A stretch of DNA of 32,500 nt from Halichondria panicea. Lineage: Eukaryota > Porifera > Demospongiae > Suberitida > Halichondriidae. Shown here piece by piece: positions 1,871 to 32,475 of the stretch (the stretch's first letter is position 1; each line of letters opens with the position of its first letter). Made by a program: the position numbers and the translations under genes. The notes under the pieces are model-generated. The model was not told the origin of the DNA and made no database searches. It saw only the letters and a list, made by a program, of their open reading frames with translations. The DNA is taken from NCBI RefSeq assembly GCF_963675165.1, contig NC_087377.1:4362042-4394541 (forward strand). The letters are read 5' to 3'.

Positions 1871-1920
1871 AAAAAAAACTATAACAAAATATTTGCATAA
1901 AAACTAGACACTTATTTTAC

Positions 1921-2058
1921 CTTCTGTTGCAGACAAACTTCTAGTGACAGCAAAAGCTCTTGTTATTACCGAACGGTCTCCTCTTGTTATCATGAACTCC
2001 ATATCCACTAGACCCACTGTTTCCACAACAACAATGTCTTGAGCTTGGATCCAGGCCA
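1921..2058 (-). CDS. Gene A exon 3: first half of Calx-beta-like domain
   Basis: 138 nt with phase 1 at both ends. It encodes [31 protein letters not shown] and LSATEG. The donor is GTAAAA. The partner exon with the DDD and TITIIDD motifs was not found downstream. Confidence 0.65.
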
Positions 2059-2119
2059 CTGGAGGAAAGAAGTGAAATAAATTAACACAAAATTAATGAT
2101 AATTATTAATAGAACTTAC

Positions 2120-3520
2120 ATCCTATTGGTCTCATCTCGAACGGTAGAGGGTAAGTTACTCTAACGTCTATAGCAAAGCTTTGTACACACCCCCAGAACG
2201 GTACATCACCAGAAAATTGTATATCAAAGGTTTGTTGGTCAAAGTGTTCAGTAGCTCCCCGCCCACACACCATTGACTCAAAACAGTTCTACCTACAATT
2301 GATGTTAGTGAAACCATCAGACGGTGTCAATACATCTCCATTGACTAGTAATCCTGGAGAGTTTAGATCCTGGAGAGTGTAGCTCAAGGACACAGGATCA
2401 TTACCTGACAGACTTGTGAGACTGTACCGAGTCAGATAGGAATCAACAGGTGGTGTATACACCATCGAGTATCCTAATCTACTGTGGTAACTCATAGCTG
2501 TAACTGGACGTGTCGACTGGACGCTACAAAATGTTGTTGTGAAAAAAAAACATTCAACGTATTGGCCTCGATTTATAACAGCAGTGAAAAGTGCCCCAGA
2601 ACCTGAAAGGGGCACTCTATTATTACTCACAGAGCCTGGCCGACATGGGCAGTTGACTTGTATAAAAGCTTCATCACTGATAGAGCCTATTCGAAACATA
2701 GACCCCCCAAAAGGTTCAATCGATAAAAGAAAGAATAAATCGCCGTATGTTGGGTGTGATGGAATTTGCTCCACACAATAATCAGTAGTGTCACTTATGC
2801 CACTGAAAACAGACAATGGCTTGTCAGATGTAATGATAGTGCCGGTCAAATCACCATCATTGATAAGCAACAGAGTATCAAAGCGATTGAAACGGCGTCC
2901 ATAGATAGCTTCTTCCTGAGAGGTACCCGGAGTTGTACGCTGCACACTTGGATTCACCCAGGAGGGATGAGTGTATGGTTGTGATGGTCTAACATGAATA
3001 GTTGTGTTATCTTGACAGGGTGTCATGAGAAACTGGCTACCACTATCACTTCCAATATAATATAATGAAAATATAAAATATTGGTAGTCTCTCGCCGTTG
3101 GAAACTCGACACAGTTAATAGCCATGAAGGTACCAGTTGAGGATCTAGTACTGCTAAGAGCATATACTGTGAGCTCATCACTCTGATTATCTGCAGTTAA
3201 GATCAGTCCCTTTTGTCTATCACTTGTATCATTATTGCCATTACTCTGTACTGATAAGTCTGGTAGTCCGCTAATGTTTGCAGCAGCTTGCAATTGAATG
3301 AATGTGAACTCCCCCCTCCGAGCTGTGCCAATACGAGAGAACAATCCACTGTCAGGTGATGTCTCGTTGAATCCTGTTAGGCCATGCAACTTTGTTTCGA
3401 TAGTAAAATTTGATACATTTTGTTCCGTCGTAATATAAAGTGTTATCTCGGATCGTCCATTACTATCTCTCATAAATGCAAGAGCAAATGTATTGCCTCT
3501 GGTTGTAGGAGCATTGGAAT
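2120..3520 (-). CDS. Gene A exon 2: IgGFc-binding-like domain, nonsense at 2289
   Basis: The same length (1401 nt) and the same boundaries (CTACAG acceptor, GTAAGT donor) as RTK exon 2. Shared blocks include [38 protein letters not shown] and [18 protein letters not shown]. The only stop seen is TAG at 2289-2291, close to the 3' end. The reading frame resumes as [12 protein letters not shown], as in the main gene. Confidence 0.75.
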
Positions 3521-3550
3521 CTGTAGAAATAGAGATATTAATTTCATATT

Positions 3551-4300
3551 ACATGGATGTATAATTGCATGGGGCGAGCCCGTACCCAAGAGTGGTGATC
3601 CATCACTGGTCAACAACTACCGGCCAATATCAATATTACCAGTTGTAAGCAAGACCCTGGAAAAACACGTAAAAGCACTTATGGAGGAGCACATGAAATT
3701 ACATTCACCAATTTCCCTAAGGCAATGGGGCTTTATGTCGTCACGTTCAACTGTGTCAGCTCTCATTCAAGCTAGTGATTGATAACTGGAGCAGGGCTGT
3801 CGACAGGGGATGGTCTGTATTGTATTTTTCTATGTCCAAAAAAGCTTTTAATTCTGTCCCATGCACATGTTGCTCTTTTGAAGCACCTTCAGTATCTGCA
3901 CATCAATGAGTACATTGTAAAGTGGATGAATAGTTATCTACTGAGCAGAGAGCAATTTGTTGGAATAGACGGATGTACTTCAACTGGTCTACGAGTCCTT
4001 TCTGGAGTTCCTCAGGGCTCGGTCTTAGGAGGCCCCTACTATTCATCTCTTATATAGTCAGTTACTATAGGCAGAGGCTACTCTACATACCCGATAAACA
4101 GTACCATACATACATACAAACATGTACTACTCATGCATGCGCATGACATACTTTCTATGCACGTAACAGAAGTTATTTCACAGGACAGCAACCTCAACAT
4201 GTTTGCCGATGATAATTATATAATGGTCCTGTATAAAGTCATCAAGTCTAATAATGACTACATTCTACTTCAAAACGATGTAAATGCTGTTTCAACATGA
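3551..4300 (+). pseudogene. Degenerate non-LTR reverse transcriptase fragment
   Basis: Plus-strand segments in shifting frames encode the pieces of a LINE-type RT: KSGDPSLVNNYRPISILPVV then SKTLEKHV, WGFMSSRSTVSALIQA, a broken SKKAFNSVPH block, INEYIVKWMNSYLLSREQ, SGVPQGSVLGG, and finally NLNMFADDNY, where the catalytic box is FADD. Several frameshifts and stops, plus an apparent insertion of about 120 bp between SVLGG and the FADD block, make it dead. The endonuclease and 3' end are not recognisable. Clade (CR1/Jockey-like) is a guess. It starts within 30-40 bp of the acceptor of gene A exon 2, so it sits inside intron 1. Confidence 0.75.
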
Positions 4301-4762: not shown

Positions 4763-4801
4763 GTTATGCCTCGGTGCGCATGCGCAAGCGAGGTATACGG
4801 T

Positions 4802-4841
<40 letters not shown>

Positions 4842-5320
4842 CTATTTCAGCTGCTCAAGGATCAATGAAGTGCAAGTAAGAGTTTCTATAGGCTTCTAGT
4901 CATGTTTTCTTGGCGTGCTATTTGTGGATTTGCAAAATAAAGCTTCGTTCTTGAGTTATGCCTAGTTTTGCTTACTTGGAATGCCATTGCAGCCTTTTCA
5001 GAAGAGTCAGTAGCAAAACTTGTTCACCGAGTGTTGCTACTCTACTTAGTAGTTAGCTCTGCACTAGAACACTAGCTGCAAGAGTGAGAAGAGAGCTGCA
5101 AGGCTCTGCTGACTTGCAGCTAGACATAAACTTTTGGCATCGATCGTTTTTAACAACAATCATGGTCGATCATTACCCACTATTTGAGTTTCCCTGTGAT
5201 TACAGTACAGCAAAATTAATCATGCAATGATAGTATAAAAAGCTAGCTAGTAGTTTTATGTTTAGTTATGTAGCTTTGGCACCTCCACCGAGGCATCAGC
5301 ACCCGCGGTGCTTTCATTAT
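4763..5320 (+). mobile_element. Foldback-type nonautonomous element, copy 1 (+)
   Basis: One end is the hairpin CCTCGGTGCGCATGCGCAAG closing with CGAGG, followed by TATACGGTA and a GT microsatellite. The body starts GACTATTTCAGCTGCTCAAG, and the other end is CACCGAGGCATCAGCACCCG closing with a GGTGC hairpin. The same body recurs inverted at 7681-8290, and at 19864-20487, 20484-20875 and 32058-32475. No open reading frame is present. Confidence 0.75.
4803..4838 (+). repeat. (GT)n microsatellite
   Basis: Nearly pure GT run in the foldback element; the inverted copy carries CA at 8189-8243. Shorter CA runs occur at 20808-20826 and 23811-23826. Confidence 0.9.
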
Positions 5321-5438
5321 AAAAGCGTTGTATTTTTGTACGCCATGGACGACCGACATGACATTACTGTCTGACTGTTTAGATGTGGTGTGGCCCGTAC
5401 CAAGGCCACGCCCATATAGTGACGTTTAGAGGGGGGGT

Positions 5439-7520: not shown

Positions 7521-7680
7521 TGGGCAGGTTTTGGAAATACAGGTCAGTACGAATCATATAGTATAAAAACATTTGTAGGCCTGCATGATGGAAGTATACT
7601 GGCGGTTAATTATCTCCTTGGCATAGTGTAACAGATGGAGTCGTGTGGCCATTACTTATAGTTTGATGTTATACTTGTGC

Positions 7681-8290
7681 AATGAAAGCACTGCGGGTGC
7701 TGATGCCTCGGTGGAGGTGCCAAAGCTACATAACATAAAACTACTAATAGCTAGCTTTTATATACACACATTGATTTGATTATAATTATCATGATGAACA
7801 TTTTTAATTTTGCTGCATGCGGGGAAACTCAAATAGTGGGTAATGATCGACCATGATTGTTGTTAAAAACGATTGATGCCAAAAGTTCAAGTCTAAAATT
7901 AATGGCTGCTAGTCAGCAGAGCCTTACAGCTTTATTCTCACTCTTGCAGCTACCAATAGCTAGCGTTCTAGTGGAGCTAACTACTAAATAGAGTAGCAAC
8001 ACTCGGTGAATAAGTTTTGCTACAGACTCTTCTGAAAAGGCTGCGCAATGGCATTCCAAGTAGGCATAACTCGAGAACGAAGCATTATTTTGCAAATCCA
8101 CAAATAGCATGCCAAGAAAACATGACTAGAAGCCTATAGAAACTCTTACTTGCACTTCATTGATCCTTGAGCAGCTGAAATAGTCTACACACACACATGC
8201 ACACACACACAGACAGACAGACACACACACACACACACACACAACACACTACCGTATACCTCGCTTGCGCATGCGCACCGAGGCATAACG
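7681..8290 (-). mobile_element. Foldback-type nonautonomous element, copy 2 (-)
   Basis: Reverse complement of the copy at 4763-5320, with the GT microsatellite as CA at 8189-8243 and the terminal hairpin at 8255-8285. The two copies face each other around 2.4 kb of retrotransposon debris. A further inverted match, GGGGTTGGTAGATTATGCT (5781) to 8391-8410, suggests that the inverted arrangement extends beyond the element itself. Confidence 0.75.
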
Positions 8291-9879
8291 ACATGGGGCC
8301 TATAATTATGTTGTGCTTTAAAGGATAATGTGGGTATAATTTGTAGGCTGCTAACTTGATAAAAGAATAGCATAATAGGTAATATCTCGAGCATAATCTA
8401 CCAACCCCTACAATTAAGCTGTACAGATGGCAGGCTGTGTACACGATGTTAGATCACGTGACAGTACTAAATCCCCATGCAATTATACATCTTAGATACA
8501 ACATGTGTTTTACTGTGTTGGTGCACTTGCTGGGAAGGTGTGTGTGCTAATGCCTCTCACCATGTTTAGCTTTCTCAAGAAGAGGTATTTATAATAGTTT
8601 GCTTTGTATATAATGTTACGTTTTTATTGTTGTTGATAATGAATTCCACACAGTAGCAGTGAGACACGGATCAAGGATTCTTGTCAGGGGGATTTCAGTA
8701 GCAAGGCAGGGCTCAAGCGGGACAAGGACTCCGCAAAAAAAGGTGTCACTTCTACAAAACAGTCAGCATGCGCATTAGGACTTCACCTAAAAAAAGGTCA
8801 GCACTTAATGTTTAGAGACAGCATGCGCTGGATCGAGGCTTAGAGCCTTTGAGTCACTAGAACTGCACAAACAGAACTAAAAGTAATTTAGTGATAAGCG
8901 AATATGAAAGCTTGTAATAAAGAAAAAACTAGCTAACAAGCTGCTTACGCGTCCCGCTCACTTATGTTTATGGATCAACCACTATAAGGTCGGGGGGTGC
9001 TTCCTCTGCTACCTGCTAGATCCGCCCCTGAGTTTAATGGAAACAGAAGCCTATCTGTGAATGAATAGGTTAAAGTTCGCAATGGTACAGCTTTGCAGCT
9101 AGCTCTTTTCTGACTTTTAACTAAAGTTGAATAGAAACTTTGTGCGAACAGATGATGCTACGAAAGATTCTGAAGAGACTGCAACAGACCTCACTGTAAG
9201 TATAAAATTAGTCATAACTGGAGAACAAAGCTGCATATATATCCACGTATCAAATCCAAGAGAACGTGGGCTATAATAATATTATTTACTGATATTCACT
9301 CTGTATCCTAATAGGTGATGTCCATGCAATAATTATGTTATACTAGAGTGACATAAGGTGTCATAGGGCGAGCGGAAGCGTTTGAATTCATGTTTTGCCT
9401 AAGTTCACCGTCAGGTTTAATTTGATGCACTTCCTTCATGTGATCAGTCAGCCCCACTTCTCTCTCTAGCTAGTGACTCTGAGACTAAAGCTGAGACTGA
9501 GCTGCATGGCTGGCCGGCCATGGATATGGAATGGTATAAATGTTAATGTGATAATGACGTTACTTAAAGTATAGTTTGGAAGTTCCCCTAATTTTGTCTT
9601 GTTTGTTTTGTGGCCAAGCAAGGTTTATTATCACAAGACAACAAGTTTTACTGCTGGCGTGCCCGTGGCCTCAAGTGCATGTGTCTTGTCTGAGCTTAGT
9701 GTAGCTTAGCCTTGCCTGCATGTGGCCTCAAGAGTCTGTGAGCTAGCCAGTTGTGGCCTCTGTAACCATGTGGACAGTTTCGGTAAAACGATAGCGAACT
9801 TTCATACATAAAATTCGCTATCTGATATTCTTTATGCTTTAGATAACCGTCCATTTGAACTCTTTCGTCACAACCAGTC
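8291..9879. other. Intron/intergenic DNA without recognised genes
   Basis: No convincing exon was seen. The stretch contains repeat-like text (GCATGCGC motifs at 8765 and 8822, a short G run at 8991-8997) and, near 9650-9760, GGCGTGCC-TGGCCTCAAG units like those at 23400-23700. It is the distal part of gene A intron 1. Confidence 0.5.
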
Positions 9880-10663
9880 ATAGTTTTCGTCGCATTGCAA
9901 TCGCCAAGCATGCAGTTATACAGTTGGAATACACATACCATACATACAGGCATACCGTATCCCTCGTGCGGCTATACGCCTTGAGGAATAATAATTATCA
10001 ACATTCTAGTCAGTTGATAGGCAAGCTTAGCTATAATCAAACAATTACGTACATACTATCAAAACCAACCCATCACAGAAAAGCATGCACATGCAATTTT
10101 CTAACATTTAAATAAGATTTGGAAATACATAATTTACCAGGCTCTGGATTTATTGTGGCTTGTCGTCTTTGTCTGGTTTTAGTGAAGCTGCCAGCAAAGG
10201 TGCTTGTAATTGAAGCCTCAGCAGTGGGTGCTCCACAGACTGGACAGTCAGGACAGTTGCCATCTTGTATTGACTCTTGTATCAGTGCAGACAGAATCAG
10301 AGCACATGCAATAAGCTTGTACATCACAGCTATAACTAGATCTATATGGATTGTCAACTCCTCAGCCTAGAATATAATTTTCCTTTGGACTATCACAGGA
10401 AATAGCTAGACTGTATGTAGGGTGGCTAACTGTTTTGGTCAATTCTTGGAAAAGGTCAAGTGCATTAACTCATGGTTGATTTTAATGGCTTCTTTCACAG
10501 TTCTTGCCAAAATTAATATCCCTTAATTATTGTGGAAGCTATAATTATGAGACACTTTTCTGGGCAATTTTCTTTGATCTAAATCAGCGGAGACTCTGGT
10601 CCTTTAATTTTACGATTGTTCTAAATATCCCGACAATATAATTATACCTTGAAAAGTTGAAAT
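9880..10663 (-). repeat. Right arm of the inverted duplication (intact exon-1 copy)
   Basis: The reverse complement aligns with 881-1660. This arm keeps exon 1 open and carries extra bases of its own, such as AGATCT at about 10338-10343 in the 5' flank and an ATAATTA-like insertion near 10524. Confidence 0.75.
10138..10324 (-). CDS. Gene A exon 1: signal peptide
   Basis: Encodes MYKLIACALILSALIQ (leader), then [14 protein letters not shown] and KTRQRRQ. It ends in phase 1 at GTAAAT, and joins exon 2 to give Asp as in the main gene. An upstream in-frame ATG at about 10357 also exists; I chose MYKL because it matches the main gene and the copy at 1205. Confidence 0.65.
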
Positions 10664-15637: not shown

Positions 15638-18600
15638 CTACAAAGAATGCTAAAACACTTGAAAATTAACACAATTATAGGGGGGGACTCCATTACGTAT
15701 TGGCTATTATTATAATTATCAATTAGTGTTCTGACCAGTGGAAGGAGAAGCTTCTCCCCTATATACAAATCAGCTTCCCTCCCATAGATTCCTCCCTACC
15801 TTTCCATTGAGAAGGTCTAATACTAAATGGCTAATGGGTAATTCCATATCAATTCAGCAAAAGTTCGCACATGACCCCCTCGGAATTGCCTGAAATTTGG
15901 TATGTGGGTAGTGTTTGTGGTTTTAGGAAGTTTCTGAAAATTAAAACTCATAATGTTGTATGGCTTTGTGGTTATATAGCCCACTAAACATTCCACGTTT
16001 TGTCTGATTTTACTGCACTGACTGCTATTCAAGTCCTTGTAACTTTCCTATTCTTAAAGATGTTATGAAATTGATAATATAACCTCGGAGCATGCATGAT
16101 GGGCTTTCATTTAATGTACTGTATAGCTTCATTTGGTAAATAATAGGGGTGACAGATTCTTTCTGAATTGAACCTTTGATCTTTCAAAACCGACTGCTCG
16201 GAATTTCGTTAATTTTTTTTAGGTGTATGCTTAGGCCCTTATTTATGAACTGTGAACATTTCATGTTGGGGGTCCATTGGGATTGAAAGATATGTAGTCT
16301 TATAGAATAGTACATATGCCTCTCTCAGTACACTATTGCACACACTAACACTGTTTGCGTTTATTTAATTAAAAATAATTGTGTGTTTGATCATGCATGT
16401 ATCAAAGAATGATAGCTTGAACAAGGACAACCTCCTTTTTCCTTAGTGCAACCAATCATTTTATTAGCAGCAGTCAATTTTTACAGTGCACTAGTGTGTC
16501 ACATCTGCCTAGCCTACTGCTTACAAAGAAAAACAATGGCTCACAATTCTTGTTGCAATCCCTTTGATTTACCTGGGCACTATTGGAGAAGTCGCAAGAA
16601 CAACTTAAGACCTGTCACAGAATGGATGTGTGAGAAAGCTCCACAACTTTCTATTTCCTCCAAGATCTGTGACACCTGCCGAAAGAAGATTAGCAAGCAG
16701 ATACCACCACCTCAACCCCTTCTCCCTGAACCTGCTTCCCCATCACCTGAAGTCCCTGACTGTGACATTGACTATGTGCCAACATCTGTTTCCACCATTA
16801 ATAAATATTTGGCAGAAATTGGTGAAACACCTTATTCCAAGAGTAAAGCCCGTGGAAAGAACTATTCTAGCCAAAAAATTAAAAGGATTACAGAAGCAAT
16901 GCAGCACACAGTTATCACTGGCAACATTTTAGACGATGGGAGTGAGATGATTCAACAGCTCAAAGAAAAGTTTGAAGTAGTATCAAAAACAAGTGAACGT
17001 TTGCAAATTCTCACTGTTTTGCCCAAAAGCTGGACAGTGAAGAAGATTCAGGAGGAATTTGGTGTGACAAAACACACAGCACAAAGGTCAAAGAAGATTG
17101 TAGAAGAACAGGGGGTTCTGTCTCTTCCAAGCCCAAAAGCTGGTCATTCACTAGTGGTAGAAACTGTCGATGTTGTCCACTCATTCTATCAATCTGATGA
17201 CATCAGCCGAGTTATGCCTGGTATGAAAGATTTCGTATCTGTTAGAAAGGACGGCAAGCGTACCCATATTCAAAAGAGATTAGTTCTAAGCAACTTGAAA
17301 GAGGCATACAGCGAATTTAAGCAGAAATTTCCTGATCAAAAGGTTGGCTTTTCCAAATTTGCTGAGCTCCGACCAAAACATTGCATTCTAGCTGGCGCTA
17401 GTGGCACACACTCAGTGTGTGTGTGCACTATACATCAAAATGTGAAGTTAATGATATTTGAGATGCGACTCTCAGATCTACCAACATACCAGCATTGTTT
17501 GGCAAGAATCATGTGTAATCCACCCTTGCCAGAATGCTATTTTAGTGAATGTAAGGCTTGTCTGGGAATTGAAAAACTCAGAGATGACGTACTCACTTCA
17601 TTAGATGAAAATGAAGTGGACCAACTTATCTACAAACAGTGGGTTTCTACTGACAGATCCACGCTTGAAACTTTTTGTGCAACAGCAGAAGAGTTCGTTG
17701 ATACTTTCTGTGAAAAATTAGAGCTCCTGCGATCCCACTCTTTTGTAGCTAGTCAGCAAGCCGCATTCTATGCCGACTACAAAGCAGGCCTTAAGCCTGG
17801 TGAATTTTTGGTCACTGCAGATTTTTCGGAGAATTATTCATTTATTTTGCAAGATGCTGCCCAGGGCTTTCACTGGAATAACTCACAGGCAACTATTCAT
17901 CCCTTCGTCGCCTACTACTCTGATTTGAAAGTGGTGCACCATCTAAGTTATGTGGTCATTTCTGATTGTCTACATCATGACACTGTAGCTGTTTATCTTT
18001 TTCAGAAACTATTCCTAGGATTTTTGACAGCTCATCTTCCCGAAAGATTGCATCCCAAGAAAATTATATATTTCTCAGACGGCGCAGCATCCCAGTACAA
18101 AAACCGAAAAAACTTCCTCAACCTATGCCACCACAAAGACGACTTTGGTATGTCAGCTGAGTGGCATTTTTCGGCCACCTCACACGGAAAAGGCGCTTGT
18201 GATGGTCTAGGTGGAACAGTAAAGCGCCTAGCAGCTTGAGCGAGTTTACAGAGACCATACAATGACCAAATTATGACGCCTCGCCAGCTGTTTGATTGGG
18301 CATGCACGAATATACAAGCTGCTAATTTCGGTTATTGTAGCAATGAAGATTATCAGAGGGAAGAGCAAAATCTGGAGAAACGTTTCCAAAACTCTCGTAC
18401 TATTCCTGGTACTAGAAAGCTGCATTCCTTTGTTCCTGTCTCAAACACTAAAGTAAAGGTCAGGAATTATTCAGCTTCAAAAACTGTGAAAGAAGAGAGG
18501 GTCAGTTCGGCAAAGAATGATATTCCACCTAATTCAATTGTGGGCTTTGTAACGTGCTTATGTGATGGACATTGGTGGCTAGCTTGCGTACTGGAAGTCA

Positions 18601-21600
18601 ATCAGGAAGATAATCTAGTGAGGCTAATATTCCTGCATCCACATGGCCCAAATACTTCTTTCAAGTATCCGCAAAAAGAAGACATACGCACTGTTAAAAT
18701 AGAAACTATTTTAAGGCTTGTTGATCCCCGAACAAGAACTGGTCGTACATACACTCTGTTAAAAAAGATACTAAGTCTACTACTGAAATGTGTGTTATTT
18801 TGTCTCAGTAGAGTAAGTTATTTTTGCACATCTGTTTTGTGGCCAATCTTCTCGTCAAACAGTGTTAGTGTGTGCAATAGTGTACTGAGATAAGTCACAG
18901 AGGCATATGTACTATTCTATAAGACTACATATCTTCCAATCCCAATGGAGCCCCAACATAAATTTTCACAGTTCATAAACAAGGGCTTAACATATACCGT
19001 AAAAAAATTTAACGACGTTCCGAGCAGTCGGTTTTGAAAGGTCAAAGGTTCAATTCAGAAAGAATCTGTCACCCCTATTATTTACTGAATGAAGCCATAC
19101 AGTACATTAAATGAAAGCCCCATCATGCATGCTCCGAGATTATATTATCAATTTCATAACATCTTTAAGAATAGGAAAGTTACAAGGACTTGAATAGCAG
19201 TCAGTGCAGTAAAATCAGACAAAATGTGGAATGTTTAGTGGGCTATAACCACAAAGCCATACAACATTATGAGTTTTAATTTTCAGAAACTTCCTAAAAC
19301 CACAAACACTACCCACATACCAAATTTCAGGCAATTCCGAGAGGGTCATGTGCGAACTTTTGCTGAATTGATATGGAATTACCCTAATACTAAATGGTAA
19401 TCAAACTGCATATCTGAAAACTAAAACATAAATTCTCTTCAGGAGGGAGCTATAGGACCCCTGGATCCCCCTCTCACTTAATTCATTTTCTCCCACAATC
19501 TAGAGATAGTAGATAAGATACCCTGATAATAATGCACAGACGGTGTCTGCTTGAAGTAACATGCAATAAAAGAAATGCAGTGTGTCCTTACTTAGAGTGA
19601 GCTATCAATTGCTTACTGTGTTCATCCTCAGTGATGGGGACTAGCTCCATGTTCAGTTCCACGTAGCCCACCATGGTGCTCAGAACTTTCTCCAACTCGG
19701 CTGCTAGCTCATCGAAGGATGGCCTCTCGTCAGAATCCTCGTACCAACATGTAGTCATCAGTGAGATCCTGTAGTAACAATCAGACAAATGAACGACACT
19801 ATATATACAATCAAATTAAGTTGCCATGTGACATACTTTCATAAAATAAAAAAACATAGATAAAATGAAAGCACCGCGCGGATGTTGATGCCTCGGTGGA
19901 GGTGGAGGTGCATGTTAAAGCTATATACTAGCTATTTAGCCTTAGCTTTTATACACACATAATAATAATAATTATCACGATTAACATTCTTGCATAATAA
20001 TTAATTTTGCTGCATGCAGGCAAAATCCAGAATCGCAGGGAAACCCAAAGAGTGGGTAATGATCAACCATGATTGTTGTTAAAAACAATCGATGCCAAAA
20101 GTTCAAGTCTAAAATGAAGGAGTGCATCAGCAGCTATATAGAGCCTTGCAGCTCTTTTTCACTCTTGCAGCTGCCAATAGCTATAGCGTTCTAGTGCAGA
20201 GCTATAGGTAGTGTAGCAACACTCAGTAAACAAGTTTTGCTACGCACTTTTCTGAAAAGGCTGCAATGGCATTCCAAGTAAGCAAAACTAGGCATAACTC
20301 GAGAATGAATTAAGCATTATTTTGCAAATCCACGAATTAAAAAACATGACTAGAAGCCTATAGAAACTCTTACTTGCACTTTATTGATCCTTGAGCAGAT
20401 GTAGCAGTCTACACAGACACACAGACAGATGGACACACAAACATGCTACCGTATACCTCGCTTGCGCATGCACAGCGAGGCATGATGAAAGCACCACGGG
20501 TGCTCAGTGATGCGTCGGTGGTGATGCTAAAGCTATACATAACACTATATAATACTGTAATAACTCTTATATAATTATTATGACAACACTCCAAGGGCAA
20601 GTTTTTCTACGCACTATTCTGAAAAAGGATGCAAAGGCATTCCAAGTATTAAAGCAAAACTAGTCGAGAACCAAGAATAATTTGCAAATCCACGAATTAA
20701 AATCCACAAATTAAAATCCAAAAAACATAATTATGCTAGAAGCCTATAATTATGTAGAAACTTTTACTTGTATTTCATGGATCTTTGAGCAGTTGTATTA
20801 TAGCAGTCTACACACACACACACACATTACCGTATACCGTATACCTCGCTTGCACATGCGCGAAGCATGAATCACCTGCTATAGTTCGCTAGTCAATGTA
20901 TATATACACTAACATATCTGTTACCGAGGCAATGAATCACCTGCTATATAGCATCAATGTATATACACTAACATATCTGTAGAGCAGGCAATATTCTGGG
21001 GAGGTTCCAATCTCTTGCCCTCTCTGAGTAGAGCCACTAGGGACATTGGGTCCACTCCAGGGTAGGGGGTCCGGCCACTACTGAAGACCTCCCATACAGT
21101 CACACCATACGACCACTGCATTAACAAATTTCACACAGTTTTTTTAATTTGTAAAGTTAATCAAGCTTTGAGAGCACAAAACTGAACACAATACTGTATG
21201 CCATAATTATTTACTTGCCCTCCTTGATTAAACGCTTATCTCGTTTAAACACCCATTGTAAAAGATCTGTGTCTGTCAAGAAACGTCCTTCTTGGGGCGT
21301 AGCACTGTGGGTAGAGCTGAAGTACGTAGCACGTGGAACCAGTTGCAAGCATTGCATGGCAGCATAGAATAATAGTGATAGCAAAGAGAGAGATACCGAC
21401 ACCGAGGGAGAAACACCACTCCAACGACTTATTAAGATATAAGCTGAGAGCTGTGGCAGCAGCCAAGAATAATATAACTGTTACTGTGCAAGAGTTTGAA
21501 GTAAAGTAAATATGGTAGACTATCATACATAACTGGAGTAATAGAGCATTACACATGCAGTGTCCCGTAACTAATAGCAATTAACATACCACATCTGTCT

Positions 21601-24600
21601 TCTCATTGAATATAGCATCATTTAGACTCTCCATTGCCAACCATTTGTACGGCAGTTTGACTCCCTCAGCTTCACCCTGTCTGAAGTATCCTTGCGCATA
21701 CGTGTCCTCGGCCAGACCAAAATCACCAACTTTGACGTCACCATTTGAATCCAACCTACGAGAATTATTATTTCATGAACATTTGCTGACCTATAATGAT
21801 CAAACATGAAATAATTATGTGTAAATCCTCCATATTACGTATACTGTGTGCACTCGTGCAGCATGCAGCAAATAAGATCAGACAAATCAATTCAGTGCCT
21901 CACATGCAGTTCCTGGCAGCCAGATCTCGATGGACAAACTTGTGCCGAGCAAGATACGCCATTCCAAGAGCTATCTGATGACACATCTTCAACAGCAGCT
22001 TCCTCACAGCTAACACCTATAATTATGGTAGCAACAAATAATTTACGAAAACAAAAGATTTGGATCCAAAAAAGCAATCACTAATTTAAACACACCATTT
22101 GATAGACCCTTTCAATAACTACTAAATGCATTGTAATTGGACATTCCTAACTCAAGTTATCCATGCTCAAAGGTATCAACACCATTAATTTTTCAGAAGA
22201 AATGGTATCTCAGTAATAAACTATGTCTCTATATATATAGCTGTGGTCATCCTTGGTATATAGACTATAATAGTACGTGGCTGTATAACAAAAAGGTGGC
22301 CTGCCAATTAACACAAGCATGCTATGCATGGAGACTTTTGGGGTCCATTATAACAGGGCTGTATAGAGGGTGGACTGCTTACAATAACATATATAGGATG
22401 ACCACAACAAAAATGTTTCACTGTACAGTGTCACCACAATAGATACTTCACTGCATATAATTATACTGAACCATAATAACATGCAGGCTTCATCATTCAA
22501 ACTATAATATATATAATTATGATTTACATAGAGTTCAAATATACCTTCTCAGAATCCTCTCCTTCTGCCAACTCTAGCGCAGATCTCTCTTTTTTCAAGT
22601 AGTCTAGTAGACTCCCATTGGTCATATACGGCATCACCATAGAAACACCGGGTCCAGCGTCGAGACACACCCCAATCAGGGGCATGACGTGAGGGTGGTG
22701 GAACTCTTGCATCTTAGTGATCTCACTCACCATGCTCTGTACGTCACTCTGAGTGAACAGACCTGAGGGAGGTGGAGGGGGGTAGACACAAGTGCCTGAA
22801 AGATTCTGAATCAGACAAACGAGTGTTTAACTCATTTGATACTATAGTGCTCATGGGCAAACCCTTTGCTACATTATAGTATAATGATATGGTTATAATT
22901 ATTTCGAGGGTATAAATGTTTGCGGTTTTTGCTGATTTAGAGCAAACAATTATACCCACGAATTGCATGCATGCTTCAAAGGCTGCTATTTCGCAAAAAT
23001 TAAATCCGCAAAAACTTTTACAACGGTCATTCCGTGAAGTTTTATAACGATCCTCTATATAAGAAACTTTTCACATGTAGATCCCATGTATCAACTAGGG
23101 TTTATAATACTAGACAAATATAATAACTAGGAGCATGCAGAGCATGTTTGGGGCGAGCGAGCAATTTTGTTTTTGTTGTACAGTGATTAGGTACAATAAG
23201 AATTATTGTTTTATATGAATCGAATGAAGTAGTATCAGTGATTGTGGATGACCGAGTAGTCTGATGTAGATACGACTTTCCTGTGCCAGCTGTATACCCG
23301 TGACAATTATTGTTACTTTTTGCTGGACCCAAATTACAACAAATTACCGTAAGGCTTTAGTATACTGTCAATGTAAACAATCCAGATTGATAAGTAAGCT
23401 ACTCTGACCTGTTGTAAGCGTGCCTTTGTGGCCTCAAAAGTTTCCATCTGAGCTGGTCTGACATGCATGCCCGGCCGTAGTGTCTGGTCTCTGTGTTATC
23501 CTGTTGAGCTAGCAGGTTTATTGTCTCACTTAAAGTGACCTATGAGTATCCTTGATGAAACATGGCAAGTAAGCTGCTGTGACCTTCTGCAGGCGTGCCT
23601 GTGTGATCTCACGCTCAAAAAGTCCCCATCTGAGCTACTCTGACCTGCTGTAGGCGTGCCTGTAGCCTCAAGAGTCTCTGTGTCTTGTTTGAGCCTTCGT
23701 TGCTGAGTGTTAGCTAGCCGCTCTGGTCCCGGTCCCATGTGCAGCTTTCACGTAAAAGTTGGTAAATGGTCACGTGTACAAAAAACAAATATCGTGCCGA
23801 TACAGACACACACACACACACAGACAAAATTGCTACGTTCCATCACTAGGTTTAAGGGACTCGTTTCGCTCGCCCCAATTATTATATACACTGTTTAAAC
23901 ACGAAATAAAGAAAGAACCAAGAATTCTCTATGATACGCAAATCTTTTTTTTGACAGAACGCAGCATAAATAGATCAGCTACAATTATACCTTTCAGAGT
24001 CTTTAAAGCCACGCCCCTAATGGCAACGTTGTTCCAGTCCATTAGTAGTCCTTTGTACACAATCCCAAAGGCTCCTGGAATAATAGTTCGATCAAATTAA
24101 ACTGACAGAGAACTAATTTTTTGACTCTACAAATAGTTACCTTGACTGACTGCATCTTGCAGTTCAGATTGGAGCTGGGAATTCTCATTGATTCTGGAAC
24201 ATACTTCACGATCTCTCGCATTTGATAATCTGTAGATATAGAGCATAATTGTGATAGTATAGCTACTTAGGAAGTATAGGTATAATTATTATTTATCAAT
24301 TTATCAATTTTTGCTATGTTCAAAAATAGGTGGAGAGTGATATCTATAGAGGGCAAACTGAAGTGTAAAAGGCTTAACCTTGCCTGAAAAGTGTTGGCCC
24401 TCTGTGATGTTTTAAACAAATCGTGCATGTTGAAGAAACACACCGAACGACCATCTTTTGAATGTAAAAATTAACCTTTGAACATTGACTTTGAACGTTG
24501 ACTTCTCAAAACGTCACTGCATGCAGTACTAGCCATTCACTTAAAAATATATCAGGCTAGGAAAGTGCAAACTATTCAATTCTGGTATCATTTTGAATGA

Positions 24601-27600
24601 AGCCAAAGCTCTGCTCTGTCCAATTAAGCAGTAAAAACCAATTTTATATCTTGCAGCGTAAGGACCCTTTTCCTAAACTATCACAATTATATAGTCAGAA
24701 GCAGATGGAGTGTCTTACTACACAGATTCTGTATCGTCTAGCTATGTATCTACAAATCATCCATACAAACTGCTAAGTGCTGCTCATGATACTCACTATT
24801 ATTGTATTAGATCAAACGCGGTATCAGCAACACATGCATGTACAGCACATAGCTTATTACAAAGAAATGTGGTTAAGACGATAGTGAATCTGTGAATATG
24901 TAGTAAGACTCTCCATCCCCTCATCCGCTCCTGTTATAATACATACCCATAAGAGTACTTCGATCAGACAGCTTCCTCATTCTATAAAGAGAGAGATTAA
25001 ATCCAATCAAAAATACACAACACGATTGCCTAAGCTATAATAATAATAGTTAAAATACTGCAGACACTGTTGGGGCACATATTTTACCATTGGCACTGTA
25101 TGTTTCGTCTCGACCTTAAAAAACAGAGACAGTAAATTATTGCCAGTATAGCAACAGCAGCCACAACCACGACGACGATGATGCTGATAATCACTGGGTC
25201 AGACACACCTCCTCCCTCATTGGTTGGCTGCATAGTCGATACTGTTGGGTCTAAACACAGAGGGAAATGATAACTATAATTATGTCAACAGAATTCTGTA
25301 CTGTATAGCTATATACTTATATACGATCCTCCGAAAAAGAGACAATTTGTGGATAATTAAGCAGTGTTCTACATTTTCTACAGCTCCCTTTTTATAATTA
25401 GGACAGTAAATTAACACCAGTTTACTGCATGTAGTTATATAGCTAGTCAATGTGACATTTATGTGGGCTATATAATTGGTAAGGGGAAAGGGAATACTCA
25501 AAAAGTCTAAGAATATAGACTACACTGTACTATGGTACAGTGTAGTCTATATTCTTAGACTTTTATATGCATATGCACACACATATACATATAATGTATA
25601 CACATGCAGGGCTTACCTGTTGTGCACACAGGTTCAGTACCCGTCCAATATTCATCGAAGCATATCCTAGTAGCATCTCCTAGTGAGAGGTTGAATCCAT
25701 CATCACAAGTGCATGTATGTTGCAACAGTTCCATTCGGTCTAGTGCCATTCAAGGGAAAGCCAATGAAACTTAGTGTACCGTTGTCAATTTGAAGCAGGT
25801 CGGAGCAAAAGACTACAATAATGAAAAAATGTGTTTAAACATAAGAGGGTATATATAATAGGAAATGATCACATTAACTATATACTGACACATACAGTAT
25901 AGGAACCTCTGAAAACCAAACAATTTGAAGTCAGTCAGGATATGTTGTGACAGTAGAGTGCCCAAAATGAGTGTACAGAATACCATGCATTCTACTTGCA
26001 TGTTCTTAAAAGTGGTATTTAGCTAGTACAGTGTCCCTTTCTTAATTATCTCATATTCAGTTTGAGTCGTATAAGTTTAGGCTATACTTACTGTTATACC
26101 AAATAATTTTACATACAAATATTCTCATACATAATTATAACCTACTTTCTATATACACAGGTACCGTGCCCGTCCAATTTCCAGTGTCACATATCCTAGT
26201 GGCATTTCCATCCAGTCTGAACCCATTGATACAAGTATATGTTGCAACAGTTCCATTCGGTCTAGTGCCATTAAACACATCTTCCTCCATATTATATTCC
26301 AAGGTACCATTCTCCATTTCAATTTGAGGCAGGTCAAAACAAATAGCTACAATAATAAGTATTAGCAGTTCAGAGGTAAAAACTATATATATAATTATTA
26401 GCCTAGGAAATGACTACAATTTACTGTCACAGTGCATGGCCGGATGTTCACCATGCAGTATTTATTTATATTATATATTATGGCATCTTTACCTGATCGT
26501 AAAAACTACAGATCAAATTGTTCTGCTAACTTCGGTCATTCGCAAAGGTTTTGGCCGTAAAACATAGATGAATGTGAGTTATATATATACATGTATACAG
26601 TCAACGAGCTAGAAACATAAGCTCTATAATTATACGTACGTACCTTGATCGTCTATAATGGTGATGGTGTAAGATCGTCGTGGTAGATAGCAGTTTCCAT
26701 TATCTTCACATTCAACTACAATCTCTAATACTTCAACTGGTTCCGGAATGTCATCATCAATTATGGGCACGATAAATAGAACATTGGGAGCTGAATTACC
26801 AATTCTCCATTCCAAATTATTATTGCCTGTACCTCGGAACAAGCCAGTTGAATTGTAGTCCTCTCCTGCATGATATAATCAATAGAAAAATTTTGTGTAA
26901 AATTAATATTAATTTTGAGCAATGGCGAAACAGAATGAACATCTTGAAAACTTGATCACCCTTTATATATAGGCTTAAGTAGACACTCATCTCTTACCTT
27001 CTGTTGCAGACACATTTCTAGTGACAGCAAAAGCTCTTGTTATTACCGAACGATCCCCTTTTGTTATCATGAACTCCATAACTACTAAACCCATTGTTTC
27101 CATGACAACAAGGTCTTGAGCTTGGATCCATGCCACTGGATGGAGAAAGGAAGTAAGAATATATTGTATTGGGTATAGAACTTACATCCTATTGGTCTCA
27201 TCTCAAATGGTAGAGGGTATGCAAAGAAACCAAAACTGTATGCAAACCCCCAGAATGGTACATCACCAGAAAATTGTATATCAAAGGTTCCTTGGCCTAA
27301 GTGTCCAGTAGCTCCCCGCCCACACACCATTGACTCAAAACAGTCCGACCTACAATTGATGGTAGTGAAACCATCAGACGGAGTCAATACATCTCCATTG
27401 ACTAGTAATTCCTGATCAATGTTTAGTTCCTGGAGGGTATAGCTTAAAAAATCACCTAGTAGACTTGTGAGACTGTACCGAGTCAGATAGGAATCAACAG
27501 GTGGTATATACACCATCGAGTTTATGAAATCAACGTTGTAACTCATGACTGTAACTGGACGTGTTGATTGGACGCTACAAAATGCACGACTATTGTATGG

Positions 27601-30600
27601 TGTTCTACATTCAACGTATTGGCCTCGATTTATAACAGCAGTGAAAAATACCCCAGAACCTGAAAGGGGCACTCTATTATTACTCACAGAGCCTCGCTCA
27701 CATGGGCAGTTGACTTGTATAGAGGCTTCATCACTAACAGAGCCTATTCGAAAGTAATTAGATCCAAATAATTCAAATGGTGCAAGAAAGAAAACATCGC
27801 CGTAAGTTGGGTGTGGTGGAATTTGCTCTACATAATAATGAAAAGCTATAAAGCCACTGAAGACAGACAATGGCTTGTCAAATGTAATGATAGTGCCGGT
27901 CAAATCATCCACACTGCTAAGTAACAGAGTATCAAAACGATTGAAACGTCGTCCATAGATTGCTTCTTCCTCAGACAAGGTACCCGGAGTTGTACGTTGC
28001 ACACTTGGATTCACCCAGGAAGGGTGAGTGTATGGTTGTGATGGTCTAACACGAATAGTTGTGTTATCTTGACAGGGTGTGATGAGAAACTGGCTGTCAT
28101 CATCTTCAGATGAGAATACGAAATATTGGTAGTCTCTTGCCGTTGGAAACTCGACACAATTAATAGCCATGAAGGTACCAGCGGAGATCATAAAACTGCT
28201 AAGAGCATATATTGTGAGCTCATCACTCTGATTATCTGCAGTTAAAATCAATCCCTTTGGTCTATCAACTGCATCATCATTCATTACGACCCTCCCTACT
28301 GATAAGTCTGGTGGTCCAAAGTCTGGTAGACCATTAAAGTCTGCAGCAGCTTGCAATTGAATGATAGTGTATTCCCCCCTCCGAGCTGTGCCAGTACGAG
28401 AGTACAATCCACTGCCAGGTGATGCCTCGTTGAATTCTGTTAGACCAAAATACCTCGTTTCGATAGTGAAATTAGACACATTTTGTTCCGTCGTGATATA
28501 AAGTGTTATTTCAGGTGTACCGAAAAAAAAAATTCTCATAAATGCAAGAGCAAATGTACTACCTCTGGTTGTAGGAGCATTGGAATCTAGAAAAAATAGA
28601 GATATCGTATCACATGACATGACATGAACGTACTCTGACATGTACTGTATTACTAAAATGTTTTGCGAGCATGAAACGTGATTATGCGAACTTGGCAAAA
28701 ATAAAATCGCAAAACTGAATGGTGCATAGTAACGGATCCTTGCCAAAATGCAATAGTTAGACCACACAGGGTTAATTTTCTTCTGATTTGACTCATTCGT
28801 GTTTCACCGGTATGAAGGAATCACTAAAATTGTAGTATAATGGGGCCTATAGACCAGTGATGTAACCAGGGGGTGGCAAAGGGGGCAAATTCCCCCCCCC
28901 TTTTCTGGATCTCTATATACTTACCAGTCTCAGCTATAGCTAGCTAGCAGGCTATATAGCTACGTTCTTTGTGTATCTGTGGGTAATTATTGAATTAACA
29001 GTTACACGCATGCATGTGCCAGAGGAGGTTGGTCACGATTGTTAATTAATCTTCTAATTTTCTTTGTAACCTCCAATTCCTACAGTAAATGCACAGAAGC
29101 CATTGAAAGAACCCCAACCTACCCAACCCGCTGAGTCAGCATTTTTATCTTATTTTGGCATTCTTGAGCGTTTATCTGTCTTGTATTACGTCTCCTGTTA
29201 GCCTATAAGTCGTAGTAGTTTAAAACTATCGTTGCTACACCTGCTATATTAAGACAGGAGTCAAAGAAACAAGGAAAGTGCAGCAACAACTGGAACTTTG
29301 TGACTAATCTTAGTTTCTGGCTTATTACTTCGAGTATGACTATGCTACTCACTTTCTAGTATCACTGAGTATTGTTAGCATCACTTCCTACTAGTATAAG
29401 AGGCTATGATCGTTTGCAGCCTTTTGGCTTAGCTAGGATAGCTACTTTCTCTCAAGTTTCCACGGAATTGGAGGTTACAAAGAAAATTAGAAGATTAATT
29501 AACAATTGTGACCAACCTCCTCTGCGCATGTGCAAACAAATATGGGTGGGGAATTGCAGAAATCTGGGTGTGATTGCATGCTCACATTTGGCCACAAGTA
29601 TGCAATATTGGAATATTGGGTCATGTGGCACTGTATGCATGTGTCTGTTCCAAGAAATGTGTACTATAATTTATATATTATAGTCACGCCAGGAGGTATA
29701 CGAATCAGCGTAGCCAGGATTTATTGAAAGGGGGGGGCAACCTTTTTTCCCCGGGCACCTAGCGGCAGAAAATGTTTGCCCGGAAGTCACACCCCTTTTA
29801 ATTAATTGCGGTTGAATTTCACTTCCTGTCATCAGTATCAGTAGAGGCTAGATTCTAGATGTTATTGTCGAAAGTTGGATATCTTGATACTTGAGAGTTA
29901 GCTCTGTGGCTTAAATTATCCAGAGTTTGAGCAGAGATTGAAGAGCAACTCTGGTTTGAGAGATTATGTGATTCTTGGCCACACAGTGGAAATACAGCCA
30001 TGCTGTTAGTATATAGGGTATAATTATGGTTAAGAGTGCAATATGGGATTATTAATAGCACGAGTTAATTACCGTATAGCGAGTAATTTTCGTGGGGTAA
30101 AAAAATTCGTTCAACTCGAGAAACGGTGGTTTTCGAGAGTAAAAATTTCGTTTAGCCTCGTTGCCTGCCTGCGTTCCTACGTTCCGGTAATCCACGCCTA
30201 TGTTAAAAGTTTGTGGAGGTCAGCCCACGAAAATTACCCGCTATATATATATACGGTAACAAGCAATGTTAAGGCTTCCAATTACAATACGTTCTCATTG
30301 ACAGCGTGCACTTACTCGACAAATATAATTGCACGCTGTCAATGACGACGCATGCAATTACTGGACCAGATGTAATACAGGATTAATTGTACGCTCTCCA
30401 ATCACTAATAGCACATCATAATTATGATTATATCGACATAATAGTTAGACACTGTTTAGGAAGTTTCAACATGATTTAGAAGCTCAAAGGGCTGGTCACA
30501 GTGTAGTATCCTGAATTGATAGAACACTAGCTTCCTCTAACAATAGTAAACATGATCTATATACCTTGATAGACTATAGCTTAATTGCTTTTAGAAGATG

Positions 30601-32057: not shown

Positions 32058-32475
32058 ATGAAAGCACCGCGGATTCTGATGCCTCGGTGGTGGATGTGCG
32101 AAACCTACTTATTAAATTGCTAATACACACGCCGCCATCAGTAGAGCCCTTTTCTCACTTACATCCTTGAATCCAAGAAAACATGACTATAATTTATAGC
32201 CTATATAATATATATAGGAACTCTTCATTGATCCTTGAGCAGCTGTAGCAGTCTACACAGACACACAGACAGACAAACACACAAACACAATGACGCTGGC
32301 CATCCGACCGAAAATGTTATTTTTAAAGAATGACCGAAGAAGTGCATGAGTATCAGTGCATAATTTACCTATAGAGTGGTAGGCGGCACTACCTAGCTCT
32401 TCAGTCTCAGATTCAAATCCAGTACTCTGAGGGAAACCGTTACCCCGCTTGCGCATGCGCACCGAGGCATAATTA
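32058..32475 (-). mobile_element. Foldback element copy 5 (-), with a ~150-bp insertion
   Basis: Begins TGAAAGCACCGCGGATTCTG, contains AGTCTACACAGACACACAGA, and ends CCGCTTGCGCATGCGCACCG. Between about 32290 and 32443, other copies have nothing; here there is unrelated sequence with exon-like character. Most of the element body (from 32105 to 32160) is reduced. Confidence 0.65.

Follow-up and report, generated by a model that had tools for sequence, protein, structure and literature searches.

A Sola-like DNA transposon in the sponge Halichondria panicea and the length of its target duplication

How long is the target duplication of a DNA transposon that is bounded by a direct repeat of 17–18 bp? 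The question is raised by a locus of the sponge Halichondria panicea (contig NC_087377.1), of which we analyzed a stretch of 32,500 nucleotides, here called the window. If the repeat is a true target duplication, the strand-transfer sites would be spaced far more widely than in most eukaryotic DDE/D families, and the element would stand for a second lineage beside IS481EU with such wide spacing. If 4 bp were duplicated, the element would be an ordinary transposon, and the locus would warn that a long duplication can be mimicked when a single copy inserts into a tandem repeat.

The element covers positions 15836–19384 of the window, and the first-pass annotation had its coordinates and sequences right (3549 bp, with inverted ends of 522 and 529 bp; Table 1). 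Its termini read GGG...CCC, with GGGTAATTCCATATCAATTC as the end sequence, and alignment of the left with the right terminal inverted repeat (TIR) gives 502 identities, 16 mismatches and 15 gap positions, one 9-bp gap included, which corresponds to an identity of 502/533 aligned columns. With up to 3 mismatches allowed, the end 20-mer is found in the window at the element's own two ends only. The boundaries are probably set correctly, because the terminal 12-mer GGGYAATTCCAT recurs, with one base differing, in a related element whose transposase is just 32% identical (L006, described below); misplaced boundaries were rejected on the same evidence. Taken as a whole, the element is most likely a nearly complete cut-and-paste DNA transposon of the DDD type.

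Table 1 Features of the transposon and its flanks, in window positions
Feature	Position	Strand	Details
Left flanking direct repeat	15818..15835	+	TAATACTAAATGGCTAAT, 18 bp; ends in TAAT, the candidate short target duplication
Left terminal inverted repeat	15836..16357	+	522 bp, first bases GGGTAATTCCAT
Transposase, first part	16536..18239	+	ATG to in-frame TGA at 18237–18239; weak helix-turn-helix (HTH), candidate Asp residues D429, D515 and D556
Transposase, same frame after the stop	18240..18797	+	frame open as far as 18893, within the right TIR
Right terminal inverted repeat	18856..19384	-	529 bp, last bases ATGGAATTACCC
Right flanking direct repeat	19385..19401	+	TAATACTAAATGGTAAT, 17 bp; starts with TAAT, the candidate short target duplication

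The element had been called an intact-looking DNA transposon, of which the second half holds; "intact" is too strong because a single in-frame TGA splits the transposase frame into stop-to-stop lengths of 607 and 217 aa. The protein read through this stop aligns with the L006 homologue both before and after the TGA, the part after it by a tblastn match to about residue 666 and for the remainder by global alignment only. Because the TGA thus interrupts a frame whose two sides both align to a homologue, the copy in the window is probably disabled.

Profile searches give little to classify the protein by. Residues 153–194 match the Pfam family HTH_23 weakly (E = 0.0015, under Pfam's cut-off), and neither a Pfam transposase family for the window protein or the L006 homologue nor the integrase core was matched at an E limit of 10, a limit at which HMMER's own filters discard most matches above about 0.1. 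A profile search of NCBIfam with the transposase returned 0 matches and a search of PHROGs a single one at E = 0.6; one sequence search of the PDB returned 0 matches and another 7, all at E of at least 1.5 and none a transposase by name. Three aspartates, D429, D515 and D556, are kept in both homologues (2/2, the window protein and L006). We treat them as a candidate catalytic triad, picked among several conserved acidic residues, because others, E432 and D477 among them, are equally present in both proteins. In two low-confidence AlphaFold2 models, built from two sequences (mean pLDDT 36.8, and 43.5 for the core model), residues 423–569 are predicted to follow the order strand, helix, strand, strand, helix, strand, helix, strand, helix. 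This order would correspond to that of an RNase H-like core in which strand 1 is followed by an additional helix. At the same low confidence, one aspartate is predicted to follow strand 1, another to follow strand 4 and the third to lie within the last helix. Foldseek with the core model gave 0 matches at E ≤ 0.001, the best at 0.11 being the core of HIV-1 integrase. The three conserved aspartates and the low-confidence models together suggest that the protein is likely a DDD transposase.

The relative came from a scan of genome contigs with the pattern A..HGKG..DG.GG, which gave 6 stretches that were then compared by tblastn. L006 is JAAEPJ010000558.1, a contig of 4028 bp from a bacterial genome assembled from a metagenome (isolate Cli_8), and is probably eukaryotic DNA that was binned by error. 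Its transposase is homologous over 531 alignment columns at 32% identity (E = 7e-57, tblastn), and the element measures 3536 bp against 3549 bp in the window, with GGGCAATTCCAT and its inverse as ends. L006 differs from the window element in that its perfect TIR spans just 12 bp, its N-terminus is different and its frame has no stop. At its flanks no target duplication is recognisable, neither of 4 bp nor longer. A chimeric assembly would explain the missing duplication; in its present form L006 favors neither a 4-bp nor a 17-bp duplication.

Searches around this relative yielded the same contig again. Among 60 genomes around the L006 genome, 1 has a transposase match at E ≤ 0.001, and among the 3 of its phylum set likewise 1, in both cases the L006 genome itself. 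One end region of L006 (bases 250–700) has no second copy in its genome at E ≤ 0.01 among the 40 of 54 candidates that were scored. Two further stretches from the pattern scan contain the motif: L004 (positions 1442–1504, HGKG..DGLGG) matches over 21 aa at 57% identity (tblastn, E = 0.003) and lies on a 3.1-kb contig from the bin of an uncultured delta proteobacterium, and L007 matches over 35 aa with the same motif (E = 0.20). L004 may encode a distant relative of the transposase on a contig assigned to the wrong bin. L005 and L002, with tblastn matches at E = 0.65 or worse, and L003, with none, were set aside.

Searches with other parts of the element extend to viral and plasmid sequences. 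The exact end 20-mer has 1 match in viral contigs (L001), which we take as chance because the contig has neither an inverted repeat of at least 20 bp nor a tblastn match to the transposase. Protein scans of viral contigs gave 3 (single protein), 78 (A1) and 59 (A2) stretches and a single-protein scan of genome contigs gave 23, none of them confirmed as relatives. Transposase motif patterns had 0 matches in viral contigs in 4/4 scans, and the part of the transposase before the stop had no tblastn match among plasmids and phages.

The unusually long flanking repeat that had drawn attention to the locus is real. Its two copies are a single C apart, and an exact search for the 13-mer TAATACTAAATGG finds it in the window at the two flanks only. 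Of 200,000 position pairs drawn at random from the window, 84 have adjacent direct repeats of at least 16 bp with at most one edit, or about 4e-4. A longer satellite containing the 17-mers was considered and rejected, as no third unit is visible by eye in the flanks and no array is listed there. The same flanks contain a shorter repeat: TAAT stands perfect at both junctions, adjoining the element ends, and also at both ends of the 17/18-mer. Two histories of the site are of interest. In one, which we consider rather unlikely, the ends were joined to strands 17–18 bp apart, giving a true target-site duplication of which one copy later gained or lost one C. A near-perfect repeat that adjoins both element ends is what this would leave, and one indel in about 35 bp agrees with the divergence of the TIRs. 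It leaves unexplained the TAAT at both ends of the 17-mer; in the window outside the element, 0.73% of 17-mers start and end with an identical 4-mer of any sequence by chance.

The other history, in which TAAT is the duplication, is the one that we regard as probable: a 4-bp TAAT duplication inside an older two-unit tandem repeat, which the first-pass annotation had offered as its alternative. Before insertion, the target would have contained two tandem units of about 14 bp, TAATACTAAATGGC-TAATACTAAATGG-TAAT. The transposase would bind the ends and cut at GGG...CCC, and strand transfer at target sites staggered by 4 bp would duplicate TAAT. Insertion at the middle TAAT of the tandem repeat would then leave flanks that resemble a 17–18-bp duplication, exactly as observed. 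Of this history, catalysis by a DDD core, the stagger of 4 bp and the prior tandem repeat are inferred. A variant of the 4-bp history, in which TAAT was duplicated on insertion and about 13 bp of flank were copied across the element afterwards or by faulty repair, would likewise place TAAT at each junction and leave one copy imperfect; it requires an extra event, nothing specific to it is seen in the window, and we consider it very improbable.

What speaks against a 4-bp duplication within an older repeat is that suitable tandem repeats are rare in the window. Across the 28,659 positions tested outside the element, a 4-bp duplication would give an apparent repeat of at least 16 bp with at most one edit at 16 (5.6e-4) and one of at least 14 bp at 29. 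Compared with the 0.73% of 17-mers that start and end alike, these counts translate into a likelihood ratio of 13 or 7 for a true 17-bp duplication over a 4-bp duplication plus tandem repeat, before priors. With a prior of 1–10% for so long a duplication, which is a matter of judgement and at whose upper end the 17-bp duplication would lead, its posterior is 0.07–0.59. The 4-bp duplication is hence ranked first because of the priors, that is, of what is known of such families, and the window statistics lean the opposite way. The 17-bp duplication is further based on one insertion, and the relative L006 shows no recognisable duplication. A single copy fits both a rare 17-bp duplication and a 4-bp duplication within an older repeat, and cannot tell them apart.

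The first-pass annotation started from the premise that known eukaryotic DDE families usually duplicate 2–11 bp, and suggested that a 17-bp duplication could point to an undescribed superfamily or integration mechanism. This premise needs exceptions. IS481EU elements of parabasalids have target duplications of about 4, 15 and 25 bp; in the prokaryotic IS1202 group they measure 5–6, 15–17 and 24–29 bp (PMC10045372), which gives the 17–18-bp duplication a precedent in length. Duplications of about 7–19 bp, made by another mechanism, are also described for some Helitron-like elements in a green alga (PMC3627910). Because IS481EU already exceeds about 11 bp, a length of 17 bp would not by itself establish a new superfamily. 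No 17-bp target duplication was named among the matches listed in a literature search on TIR transposon superfamilies.

IS481EU resembles the window element in that both long (about 15 bp) and 4-bp duplications are known from it. These elements end in TNT...AYA, have TIRs that mostly measure less than 50 bp and encode a transposase of the IS481/integrase type (PMC10045372). Set against this description, the window element has GGG...CCC termini and TIRs of 522/529 bp, and its protein matches no integrase core in Pfam; we rejected IS481EU as its family. The lack of a Pfam integrase-core or transposase match also leaves a 17–18-bp duplication with no tie to the families that make long ones. We consider it unlikely that animal DDD transposons with GGGYAATTCCAT termini form a lineage that makes true 17–18-bp target duplications; were it so, a wide strand-transfer spacing would occur in a family that shows no kinship to IS481.

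Kolobok duplicates TTAA at its target. The same TTAA is reported for piggyBac (PMC7351741). The junction flanks of the window element are TAAT, not TTAA, and it has no Pfam transposase match, so both were dismissed. Mutator/MULE elements share the long TIRs. Their target duplication is given as 7–12 bp in plants (PMC10741241), which fits neither 4 nor 17 bp, and that of IS256/MuDR as 4–10 bp (PMC10045372), which would allow 4. The one feature on which Mutator/MULE fails is the Pfam search, where neither MULE nor another transposase family was matched, and it was rejected on this point.

The closest description is that of Sola, which is summarized in PMC10741241 as having a DDD transposase, a 4-bp target-site duplication (TSD), TIRs of 11–1124 bp and a length of mostly 2–9 kb. 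The TIRs (522/529 bp) and length (3549 bp) of the window element fall within these ranges, which are weakly diagnostic; its candidate DDD residues and a possible AT-rich 4-bp duplication would also agree with Sola. For the Sola2 elements of two amoebozoans AT-rich 4-bp TSDs are described, with the form AWWT in Dictyostelium (PMC3627910), from which the TAAT of the window element departs. Unlike the window element, Sola is described without a long flanking repeat in the passages of PMC10741241 and PMC3627910 consulted. The element is thus most like Sola; we call it Sola-like rather than Sola, the likeness being one to published features.

The window contains further repeats and coding fragments. 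Blocks at 4766–5325, 7674–8291, 20031–20488 and 32185–32475 recur in both orientations, several of them with a motif like CGCTTGCGCATGCGC, and probably represent another inverted-repeat element with fragments elsewhere. A large inverted duplication, made up of many blocks that are 89–99% complementary, links 929–1764 with 9881–10609. Two copies of an IgGFc-binding domain lie about 25 kb apart on the - strand (1908–3529 and 26985–28595; Pfam PF17517, E = 2.4e-21 and 3.1e-23), with DNA blocks that are 86–94% alike. Together with the tyrosine-kinase-like fragment given below, these domains suggest an animal host. Positions 3414–3782 carry a reverse-transcriptase fragment on the + strand (E = 1.6e-5, under Pfam's cut-off) and positions 22524–22826 a fragment of a tyrosine-kinase-like domain on the - strand (E = 3.1e-12).
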